Part shown: piece by piece, positions 49,020-53,342 of the stretch
How the letters are laid out: each line of letters starts with the position of its first letter
Position numbering within the stretch: the first letter of the stretch is position 1
The notes under the pieces: model-generated
Database searches by the model: none
What the model was told of the DNA's origin: nothing
Seen by the model: only the letters and a program-made list of their open reading frames with translations
Translations under genes and position numbers: made by a program
Source: Natrinema sp. SYSU A 869
GTDB lineage: Archaea; Halobacteriota; Halobacteria; Halobacteriales; Natrialbaceae
DNA: 64,000 bases
Direction: 5' to 3'
Assembly: GCF_019879105.1 (NCBI RefSeq)
Contig: NZ_CP082249.1
Location: forward strand, 3,038,001 to 3,102,000

Positions 49020-49979
49020 GTGAGCCAGAGCGACATCGTCACCTTCGGAGAGACGATGCTCCGGCTGTCGCCGCCGGACAGCGAACGCCTCGAGAACGCC
49101 GACGAGTTCGAGGTACGGGCCGCCGGGGCCGAAAGCAACGTCGCAATCGCAGCGAATCGACTGGGCGCGTCGGCGACCTGGATGTCAAAAGTGCCCGAGA
49201 CGGCGCTCGGACGGCGGGTCGTTGGCGAACTCCGCGGACACGGCATCGAGACTGACATCGTCTGGAGCCACCGCGGCCGTCAGGGAACCTACTACCTCGA
49301 GCACGCGGGCAAACCCCGCGGGACGAACGTGATCTACGACCGGGACAACACCGCCGTCGCGACGGCGGAGGCCCGCGAGTTCAATATCGACCGGATTCAG
49401 GACGCGAAGGTCTTCTTTACGACTGGGATCACGCCTGCGCTCTCCTCGACGCTCCGGGACACGACATTGAACCTGCTCAAAGCAGCCCGCAAGGGCGGGA
49501 CGACGACCGCCTTCGACTTCAACTACCGGCGCAAGCTTTGGTCACCCGACGAGGCCAAGGAGACGCTGACGAAACTGTTCCCCGGTATCGACGTCCTCAT
49601 CATTGCCGCCCGCGACGCGCGAACGGTCCTCGGATTCGAGGGCGACCCGCGACAGCTCGCACACAAGCTCGGCTCGCAGTACGAGTTCACGACCGTCGTC
49701 GTCACCCGCGGCTCGGAAGGTGCGGTCGGCTGGCACGATAGCGTCGTCCACGGCCATGACGCCTACGAGACCGAGACCATCGATCCGATTGGCACCGGCG
49801 ACGCCTTCTCCGGCGCGTTCATCGCTCGCCGACTCGACGGCGACGACGTGCCGACCGCCCTCGAGTACGCCGCGGCGACCGCATCGCTCAAGCGGACGAT
49901 CCCCGGCGACGTCGCGCTCGTCACCGCGGACGAGGTCGAGAGCGTCGTCAAAAACCAGGGCGAGGATATTTCGCGGTAG
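49020..49979 (+). CDS. kdgK: PfkB-family sugar kinase, probably 2-keto-3-deoxygluconate kinase
   Basis: 319 residues from GTG. FGETMLRLSPPDSERLENADEF at the start, AGAESNVAIAANRLG, FDFNYRRKLW, and the PfkB signature DPIGTGDAFSGAF. The pattern matches haloarchaeal KDG kinases of the semi-phosphorylative Entner-Doudoroff pathway. Other carbohydrate kinases of the family are possible, but the KDG call is most likely. Confidence 0.85.
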   Translation: MSQSDIVTFGETMLRLSPPDSERLENADEFEVRAAGAESNVAIAANRLGASATWMSKVPETALGRRVVGELRGHGIETDIVWSHRGRQGTYYLEHAGKPRGTNVIYDRDNTAVATAEAREFNIDRIQDAKVFFTTGITPALSSTLRDTTLNLLKAARKGGTTTAFDFNYRRKLWSPDEAKETLTKLFPGIDVLIIAARDARTVLGFEGDPRQLAHKLGSQYEFTTVVVTRGSEGAVGWHDSVVHGHDAYETETIDPIGTGDAFSGAFIARRLDGDDVPTALEYAAATASLKRTIPGDVALVTADEVESVVKNQGEDISR

Positions 49980-50087
49980 TTCGTCCAGGTGGTGTCAACG
50001 GTTGGGCACGACTCGAGACGGCTGCGGTGACGATTGGACGGGTTTGCCAGAAGCTGTTTTATCGACCCATCAAAAGCAATGGGTGTA

Positions 50088-51668
50088 ATGAATCGTGGAG
50101 CCACACTACTGGTTGCACTGCTCGTGGTCGCGAGTACGGTGACGATGGCCGCGGCCGCCGGTGCAACGACGACGCAGGTAGAATCGGAGACAACCACTCA
50201 GACCGAAACCGAGGCGAATACGACCGCCGACGCCGACTCGGACGGCGAACTCGACTCGAGTACGCAGGTCGACTCGGAGACGAGTACTGACTCGAGTACG
50301 TCGAGGGAAATGGAGTCGACCGCCCACTCTGATTCGGAGACGAGCGTTGAGGGCGAGTCCGAGACGGAGACTGAGGGTGAGTCCGAAACGAGTGTTGAAG
50401 GCGAGTCCGAAACGTCCGTCGACATCGACTCGAATACGACCGCGGACGCGGAGTCGAAAACGTCCGTCGAGGCCGAGGCTGAGGCCGAAGTCGAGGCCAA
50501 CACCACGGCCGAGTCGGACTCGGACGAGACGACTGACGACGAGTCGAACAGGACCGCAGAGGGTGACGCCTACGCGGGCACCCACGTCGGGTTCGACATG
50601 CAAGGCGACGCCATCACCGACTACCGCGTCGACGGCGACCAGCCGTTTGCGTCCGTCGCCGTCCAGTCCCAGAGCGAGGCCGAGTCCGAGACGACGCTTG
50701 AGACCGGTGCGGAGCTGGACGCGGTGACGCAGCTAAACGGCGCAGCATTGTCCGTGACGACGCAGACGGAGACGAGCGCGCAGGCCCGGACTGAAAGCGA
50801 TGCGACGGTATCGGCCCACGATACCCGGCACGGCACGCTGGTCGTCGAAAGCGGCAACGAGTCCCAGTACGTCGAAGCCGAGCTCGGGGCCAGCGCTGAG
50901 GCCCGCACCGACGGCGACCGCGTCGTCGTCGAAACCGAGGACCGCGAGGGAGTCTTCCTTGTCGCCGGCGACGGCGAGGTGACCGTCACCGGCGACGGCA
51001 ACGTGTCGGCGGCACTGAGCGAGAACGCGACGCTCGCGTTCCGTTCCTACGAGGAGGGCGAACGCGATGAGAGCGACGAATACGAGGAGTCGCTGATCGC
51101 TGAGGGCAACGCAGCCGTCGAAGCGACTGCCGAGCATCGCAACGGCGAGACAGCTACGAACGCCGTCACCTACGGTCAGGAGACCACCGCGAACGTGAGC
51201 CAGAGCGCCGAAAATCGCGTCAACGTCACCGTTGACCGCGCCACGCACGAGGGAACAGTCGTGATGACGACCGTCTCAGAAGAAGCCGTCGGCAGCCTCG
51301 AGGACCTGTCAGTAACAATCGACGGCGAGGCCGCGGCCGAAGTCGACTCGAAGAGCGAGGTCGAAGGCGCAATCGGCAGCGACGAGACCCGATACATGGT
51401 CGCACAGAACGCTCAGGCGGAGGGGCAGGCGACGGTCTACATCGGCGTCAACCACTTCTCCGAGCGGACGGCAACGATCCAGGGTGCGACCGCCGAGGAT
51501 GGCAGTACGAGCGACGGAGATAATTCCGAGAGCAACGAGGAGAACAGCGAGATCACCAGCGAGGACGACACCGGTGACGCAAACGGCGACAGCGTTCCCG
51601 GCTTCGGCGCCGGCATTGCCGTCGTTGCGATCTCGACCACCGGACTGCTCGCTCGAGTCCGAAACTAG
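50088..51668 (+). CDS. Secreted PGF-CTERM surface protein with acidic stalk
   Basis: 526 residues. Start MNRGATLLVALLVVASTVTMAAAA is a signal peptide; the ATG at 50088 aligns with the start of the tandem paralogue. About 25-155 is a Ser/Thr/Glu/Asp repeat region with many ESET and SETSVEGE units, stalk-like and probably glycosylated. The globular region from AYAGTHVGFDMQGDAITDYRVDG to HFSERTATIQG is shared with the next gene. The tail VPGFGAGIAVVAISTTGLLARVRN is PGF-CTERM. Surface-anchored, function unknown. Confidence 0.82.
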   Translation: MNRGATLLVALLVVASTVTMAAAAGATTTQVESETTTQTETEANTTADADSDGELDSSTQVDSETSTDSSTSREMESTAHSDSETSVEGESETETEGESETSVEGESETSVDIDSNTTADAESKTSVEAEAEAEVEANTTAESDSDETTDDESNRTAEGDAYAGTHVGFDMQGDAITDYRVDGDQPFASVAVQSQSEAESETTLETGAELDAVTQLNGAALSVTTQTETSAQARTESDATVSAHDTRHGTLVVESGNESQYVEAELGASAEARTDGDRVVVETEDREGVFLVAGDGEVTVTGDGNVSAALSENATLAFRSYEEGERDESDEYEESLIAEGNAAVEATAEHRNGETATNAVTYGQETTANVSQSAENRVNVTVDRATHEGTVVMTTVSEEAVGSLEDLSVTIDGEAAAEVDSKSEVEGAIGSDETRYMVAQNAQAEGQATVYIGVNHFSERTATIQGATAEDGSTSDGDNSESNEENSEITSEDDTGDANGDSVPGFGAGIAVVAISTTGLLARVRN

Positions 51669-52169
51669 ACGGTGGTGTCAGTACTCGATCACTGCCCGCT
51701 ACTTTTCGACGGCACTCGATGCAAACGGCGATGGCTGTCACCACGCAGCGATACACCATTTGATCGCAGTGCTCCCGTGCCGTACCATCGATCCCTCTCG
51801 TCGTCGAGAACAGCGACGGAGAACGGCGCGAGGGAACCTCCGGCTATCGGTGTGGGCTGTGTGACGTGATTGTGACTTTCGGGGAATCGCTGTAGAGATG
51901 GATCGCTGTACTGTGCTGGTTCTTTTCCGATCCTCATTTGCGTAGTCGCGTGTCCGCTGGCGGTTAGTCGGTAAAATCGATGTTAGCACATCACCGAGAT
52001 AGTGGTTCAAACGACCGGCGCGACCCGACACTCTACTCGTGCCGTTACGGACCTCACACGATCGGGGACTGCTCTGTGCAATCTCTCCGATCGCGTACGC
52101 TATTCTCACACACAATTGGATGGCTCTGTCAGAAGGACCTTTATGCCCCACTGTCACCGGACGAGTGCA
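51669..52169. other. Intergenic region between the PGF-CTERM paralogues, no gene seen
   Basis: About 500 bases; neither strand has a convincing gene. The last 100 bases are probably the promoter of the second paralogue, with a TTTATG stretch just upstream of the start, as in the first gene (TTTTATCG). Confidence 0.55.
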
Positions 52170-53342
52170 ATGAATCGAATTACAGTCGTTGCACTCGCTT
52201 TCCTTGTCACGACGGCGGCCCTTCCGGCCGCCGCCGTCGGCGCGGGTGCGAGCGCAGCATCGCCCTCCCAACAGAGCGACGGCAGTGCCGATGCGAGTGC
52301 CTACACGGGCACTCACGTCGCATTCGACGCCTCGAGCAACGCTCTCGTCGACTACCGTGTCGACGGCCAGCAGGTGTTCGACAACGTGACCGTCGCGTCC
52401 CAGAGCGAACACCACAGTCGGACCGGTCTCGGTTCGAACGTCGGACTCGACGCCGTGGTGAACCTCTCCGGACTCGGACTCGACCTCCGAGCCCAGTCCG
52501 AGACGCGCGCCGAGATCGCGACCGACGGATCCGCGTCGATGACCGCTCACGACAGCGAGCGCGGGATCCTAACCGTTGATGCCGGCAACGAGGCCCAGTA
52601 CGTCGAAGTAGACCTTGCCGCCGACAGCACGGCCAACGCCGAAAGCGACGACCGCGTCGTCGTCAACGGCAGCGAACGCACCGGTGCGTTCGTCGTGGTC
52701 GGCGACGGCGAGGTAGCCGTCACCGAGAACGGAAACGTGACCGCGGACCTCGAGAGCGACTCGACGCTGGTCTTCCGCTCGTATGCGGATGGCGAGCGCG
52801 ACGAGAACGCCGCGGAACAGGAACAACTGATCGCCAACGGCACGGCGACCGCCGAGGTCTACGCCGAGGAGCGCGACGGCGAGCGCGTCACCGACGTCGC
52901 GACCTACGGCCAGGACATCGCCGTGAATACGTCCGAGGAGAGCCGGGATCGCCTCGAGATGTCGGTCGAACGCACCCACGGCGAGGGGACGGTCGTCATC
53001 GCGAGCGTCTCCGAGGCCGCCGTCGCCGGTGCCGAGAGCGCCGACGACCTCGCGGTGACCGTCGACGGCGAGGCCGCCGCACAGGCATCGTCCTACAGCG
53101 AACTCGAGGGCGGCATCGGCGAGGAGCCCCGCTACATGGTGACCCAGTCGAGCGACGCGTCGGCCGCCGCCGACGTGCTCGTGGCGATCGACCACTTCTC
53201 GGAGCGAGACGTGGTCATCCAGAGCGCCGACGGTAGCGGTGAAGACGGCGGGAGTGACGGCGAAGATAGCGTCCCCGGCTTCGGTGTCGGCGGTGCGCTG
53301 GTCGCCCTGCTGATCGGTACCGCCGCCCGCGTCCGACGGTAG
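52170..53342 (+). CDS. Secreted PGF-CTERM surface protein, tandem paralogue without stalk
   Basis: 390 residues from the ATG at 52170 (MNRITVVALAFLVTTAALPAAAVGA, signal peptide). It lacks the long acidic repeat but shares the whole globular part with the preceding gene, from AYTGTHVAFDASSNALVDYRVDG through VFRSYADGERDE and YGQDIAVNTSE to HFSERDVVIQ. The end GEDSVPGFGVGGALVALLIGTAARVRR is PGF-CTERM. The pair looks like a duplicated cell-surface protein of unknown function. Confidence 0.82.
   Translation: MNRITVVALAFLVTTAALPAAAVGAGASAASPSQQSDGSADASAYTGTHVAFDASSNALVDYRVDGQQVFDNVTVASQSEHHSRTGLGSNVGLDAVVNLSGLGLDLRAQSETRAEIATDGSASMTAHDSERGILTVDAGNEAQYVEVDLAADSTANAESDDRVVVNGSERTGAFVVVGDGEVAVTENGNVTADLESDSTLVFRSYADGERDENAAEQEQLIANGTATAEVYAEERDGERVTDVATYGQDIAVNTSEESRDRLEMSVERTHGEGTVVIASVSEAAVAGAESADDLAVTVDGEAAAQASSYSELEGGIGEEPRYMVTQSSDASAAADVLVAIDHFSERDVVIQSADGSGEDGGSDGEDSVPGFGVGGALVALLIGTAARVRR

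Follow-up and report, generated by a model that had tools for sequence, protein, structure and literature searches.

Two adjacent genes with export and sorting signals

The window that we analysed, a stretch of 64,000 nucleotides, contains two adjacent genes on its forward strand, which are both present at the coordinates given in the initial annotation. The first, gene A (50088..51668, +), was defined by its open frame and its homologues and encodes a PGF-CTERM surface protein of 526 aa. Its parts, all read on the + strand, are a signal peptide region (residues 1-25; 50088..50162), which was recognised by inspection as a hydrophobic N-terminus and is kept among A orthologues, an acidic extension rich in E, T, S and D (residues 26-160; 50163..50567) with a net charge of -41, a conserved core (residues 162-465; 50571..51482) and a PGF-CTERM sorting signal (residues 500-526; 51585..51665) that scores 30.6 bits against TIGR04126. 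The second open frame, gene B (52170..53342, +), encodes a PGF-CTERM surface protein of 390 aa that lacks the extension and consists of a hydrophobic N-terminal signal, a conserved core (residues 45-352; 52302..53225, +) and a sorting signal (residues 365-390; 53262..53339, +). For gene B, TIGR04126 returned 30.2 bits in the genome search and 24.4 bits in the protein scan, the latter just below the cut-off of 24.5 bits. Both tails feature the PGF motif, a hydrophobic stretch and a basic end, which together with the hydrophobic N-termini bears out the earlier description of A and B as surface proteins with a signal peptide and a PGF-CTERM tail. The whole genome carries about nine PGF-CTERM tails and no further copy of the A/B family, and it also encodes archaeosortase A (ArtA; TIGR04125, 311 bits). 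In Haloferax volcanii, ArtA-mediated lipid anchoring of the C-terminus is established (PMC7157517). Both proteins would thus be exported via the signal peptide, and ArtA would putatively cut them at the PGF motif, with the new C-terminus tied to a membrane lipid.

The globular region that the two genes were said to share, at roughly 330 residues, is real but shorter, as the cores of A and B align over about 305 residues with 46% identity (E 1e-94). Compared with the sister species, the dN/dS ratio is 0.19 for the core of gene A and 0.25 for that of gene B, and both cores are under purifying selection. Each gene is also preceded by a TATA-like box: TTTTAT lies at -31 to -26 from the ATG of gene A (50057..50062, +, read from the sequence), and TTTAT at -30 to -26 from the ATG of gene B (52140..52144, +). 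Such a motif occurs at -34..-23 in 58/115 family genes, compared with 1-2/115 in each of three control windows, which suggests that A and B very probably each have their own promoter and a leaderless transcript. We also considered read-through from the upstream kinase gene as the sole promoter and rejected it on account of the TATA-like boxes ahead of family genes.

The core family, its predicted fold and its neighbours

Apart from S-layer proteins, pilins and archaellins, few archaeal surface proteins have, to our knowledge, a known role. Scans of A, B and 78 homologues with Pfam and NCBIfam returned nothing beyond PGF-CTERM, weak MAST and chance matches, and the core reached none of the curated cut-offs. 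Long matches to the family are present in about 97 of 391 class genomes, or about a quarter of the haloarchaeal species sampled, by a hand count; the automatic figure of 104 takes in tail-only matches. A PGF-CTERM match accompanies 71 of the 78 aligned members. A phylum-wide profile search found methanogen relatives that align across the core, and hhalign of the 78 haloarchaeal against 8 methanogen sequences gave a probability of 99.4% (E 5.5e-21) over 321 columns. The gene B core has in common with the methanogens the residues H127-D128, R203, E229, Y246, D299-G300 and F343-S344. One methanogen relative (L179) matches TIGR04204, the MAST domain, with 177 bits against a curated cut-off of 150 bits. 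The family scan gave no match to TIGR04204 for the A or B proteins and weak matches for 11 of the 78 haloarchaeal members (best E 7.5e-5), and the cut-off was reached in 0/194 class genomes, whereas it was reached in the control Methanosarcina acetivorans. These alignments indicate that the haloarchaeal core is clearly related to the MAST proteins and would share descent with them; by the curated cut-off, its members are not MAST proteins. Among the methanogens, the Methanosarcina-type relatives (L176-L182) are longer at the N-terminus, where an additional region contains Met/Gly-rich stretches and short repeats (MTFEEVCNNFGIP, LTILEVEEQYGVSGQEI).

Searches of the PDB by sequence, with the family profile and with a methanogen homologue, yielded no meaningful match. 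The viral contigs searched held no relative and the plasmids searched held one, L216 (2698-4083 on NZ_CP119994.1, Halomarina), which is annotated as a hypothetical protein. Polysaccharide biosynthesis genes lie two to three genes away from this plasmid member. A literature search found no paper on TIGR04204 or on the A/B family. The earlier proposal that the shared region belongs to no recognised family therefore holds, as the core stays under all Pfam and NCBIfam cut-offs, profile searches with it matched no characterised domain, and its link is a remote one to the uncharacterised TIGR04204 only. We conclude that the A/B family represents a new branch within a surface family about which little is known. 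It is widespread in haloarchaea, has methanogen relatives, conserved polar residues and its own promoter-like elements, and falls under the curated cut-offs, which makes it a defined target for deletion and structural work.

Structure models of the core give a tentative view of its fold. The model of full-length B was poor (pLDDT 42), and that of the core alone was weak (6 sequences), with a mean pLDDT of 56.6 and a pTM of 0.63. The structural neighbours of these two weak models are nearly all galactose-mutarotase-like supersandwich domains of carbohydrate enzymes; the best match, for a weak model and against a background Z of 7-8, has a Z of 9.0 with an rmsd of 3.6 over 163 residues, and Foldseek TM-scores are about 0.2. 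The core showed no identifiable catalytic or sugar-binding motif. From the neighbours we tentatively assign the core a galactose-mutarotase-like beta-supersandwich fold and, with modest confidence, a role in binding surface glycans or ordering the envelope.

The gene upstream of A (49020..49979, +) encodes a PfkB-like protein that we take to be a 2-keto-3-deoxygluconate (KDG) kinase, from sequence likeness and general knowledge of PfkB kinases. It is a conserved neighbour: at 70 of 103 family loci, in Natrialbaceae and several other families, an orthologue precedes the surface gene on the same strand at a distance of no more than 600 bp. This arrangement directly upstream, the carbohydrate-enzyme-like fold suggested by the weak models and the Halomarina plasmid copy near polysaccharide genes would all suit a partnership in which the surface protein binds or converts sugars that, with the kinase, feed the semi-phosphorylative Entner-Doudoroff pathway. 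We consider such a partnership quite unlikely. Also frequent in the same block are the unrelated mutL, which lies farther upstream, and, on the downstream side, a gene for an FAD/NAD oxidoreductase, so the kinase linkage may be plain conservation of gene order. Furthermore, a promoter-like element precedes the surface gene itself, the kinase is found in 29/29 species of the genus whereas the surface gene has been lost in many, and the link is mostly absent in family f4. In the loci of family f4 (L112, L124 4518-5747 (-), L109, L134, L137), the surface gene is often paired; the gene that follows it encodes a further PGF-CTERM protein, whose repetitive, beta-rich sequence is different.

The acidic extension of gene A

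A repeat stalk of about 130 residues had been described for the first gene only. Between A and B, the extension is indeed confined to gene A, at 135 residues, but its repeats are just partly regular: ESET/SETSVEGE units make up part of it, and the remainder is irregular and rich in E, T, S and D. The repetition itself is well above expectation, with 17 repeated 5-mers compared with a mean of 0.5 and a maximum of 5 in 2000 shuffles, and a longest perfect repeat of 11 aa (SETSVEGESET) compared with a shuffle maximum of 8. At the DNA level, Tandem Repeats Finder reported two arrays in the window, both short and of 2.8 copies, one of which is a 24-bp repeat within the extension (50348..50414, +). 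Among family members, the long extension is found only in this species and in the sister species G011, where it spans 171 residues; the acidic extensions of G006 and G024 are shorter. We also considered the long open frames ahead of other A orthologues as hidden stalks, but they proved to be shadow frames without E/S/T repeats. A 48-bp unit that is present three times in G011, at 94%, occurs once in gene A of the window, which indicates that the repeats do expand, as the initial annotation had proposed; the expansion is visible by comparison with the sister species and not from this genome alone. The dN/dS ratio of the extension is 0.34, compared with 0.19 for the gene A core.

The position of the extension bears on what it could do. 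Substrates of ArtA are anchored via the C-terminus (PMC7157517) and the extension is N-terminal of the core, which places it at the free outer end of the protein. From there it cannot lift the core beyond the cell wall, which overturns the earlier suggestion of a stalk; the actual spacer of the A and B proteins is the C-terminal linker, of 43 residues in A and 22 in B. Given its restriction to two species, the long form is also not the basis of a conserved system.

These observations weigh on the possibility that A is an adhesin in which a stalk of repeats holds the shared domain out past the S-layer for attachment. Repeat number does vary between species, and the extension has a low-complexity likeness to the SD-repeat adhesins of staphylococci (E ~3e-8), which is far under the cut-offs, as the MSCRAMM SD-repeat models score 30-32 bits where the cut-offs are at least 999. 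That match, however, is compositional, and the long form occurs in two species only. In staphylococcal adhesins, the SD repeats sit between the binding domain and the anchor, whereas in A the domain itself separates the extension from the C-terminal anchor. We therefore regard an adhesin with such a repeat stalk as very improbable. We favour instead a putative brush at the outer tip of A, recent and still growing, which would probably be disordered and glycosylated. Gene A thus offers a natural case of a low-complexity extension that grows via the gain of repeats.

History of the pair and comparison with known systems

For the homologues, start codons were assigned by a simple rule. In a tree of 118 cores, A and B fall into distinct, supported clades, both of which include orthologues from other Natrialbaceae genera, and the tandem pairs of other families are of separate origin. 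On this tree, the paralogy of A and B within Natrialbaceae is old, which excludes a recent duplication as the origin of the duplicated surface system that had been suggested earlier. The pair is conserved, being present in 8 of the Natrialbaceae genomes sampled, although many genomes retain one gene.

The tails of the A genes suggest how B is lost. All 8 paired A genes have an A-type tail, whereas 11 of 14 A-clade genes without a B partner end in a B-type tail (Fisher p 5e-4, with relatedness ignored). A-type cores with B-type PGF tails and no B are seen at L091 (G372), L101 (G216), L056, L057, L058, L061, L094 and L080. In G372, the A gene runs into sequence that is 96% identical over 785 bp to the B end and flank of a sister species. 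The tails and the G372 junction fit deletion by recombination between the 3' ends of A and B, in which an exchange near the PGF motif would fuse A to the tail of B and delete B. The pair thus appears often to be lost by fusion, and A/B pairs provide a clear natural case of this route of paralogue loss. Outright loss is seen as well, in some species of the genus, some of which have kdgK adjoining an acetyltransferase gene. Two species of the genus retain remnants of the surface gene downstream of kdgK (L199 1222-1425 (-) and L211 894-1307 (-)), namely a fragment of the PGF tail and part of the N-terminal core.

Loss of the gene in many species indicates that it is dispensable. This dispensability, the lineage-specific growth of low-complexity sequence and the generic haloarchaeal surface-protein features would agree with a minor structural component of the envelope, an S-layer scaffold or spacer without a ligand, in which the extension adds only surface charge and hydration. 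We judge this unlikely, as H127, D128, R203, E229, Y246, D299 and S344 are kept from haloarchaea to methanogens and look like a functional site. A broader proposal, also an unlikely one, is that of an undescribed euryarchaeal family of lipid-anchored surface proteins that would use a mutarotase-like core to bind or modify surface glycans of the cell itself; in this lineage, repeats would be building an acidic outer brush onto one of the two paralogues, and recombination within the pair would continue to produce hybrid surface proteins. The explanation that we prefer, and to which we give an even chance, is that A and B are an old paralogous pair of lipid-anchored proteins with a supersandwich glycan-binding core, a recent outer brush on A and an unstable tandem arrangement. 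In such a pair, the beta-rich core of about 305 residues would stand just outside the membrane on its acidic linker, under or within the S-layer, where it may bind a surface glycan and help to order the envelope.

Several known systems resemble the pair in part. The staphylococcal MSCRAMM proteins Clf and Sdr share with A a repetitive segment rich in Ser, Asp, Glu and Thr on an anchored surface protein, but they have an LPXTG anchor with the repeats between domain and anchor, whereas A has no LPXTG motif and carries its extension at the free end. The supersandwich domains of GH95, GH92, GH139, GH36, GH81 and PL15/PL17 are the top neighbours of the weak model, but they have no sequence similarity to the core, their Z-scores are at most 9.0, and their catalytic residues were not identified in it. 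ArtA-sorted PGF-CTERM proteins such as the S-layer glycoprotein of Haloferax volcanii have the same tripartite tail, signal peptide and ArtA in the genome, but the A/B core is unrelated by sequence to S-layer glycoprotein models, as TIGR04216 and NF041335 gave no match for A or B and a weak one for 1 of the 78 members. The TIGR04204 proteins of Methanosarcina (MAST_ArtA_sort) have an N-terminal region of about 170 residues that is absent from the haloarchaeal members, their tail reads PAF instead of PGF, and they differ from gene A by its acidic extension. They are nevertheless homologous along the whole core, the C-terminal half of which corresponds to the MAST model, and they have in common with it an archaeosortase-type tail and the HD, R, E, Y, DG and FS residues.
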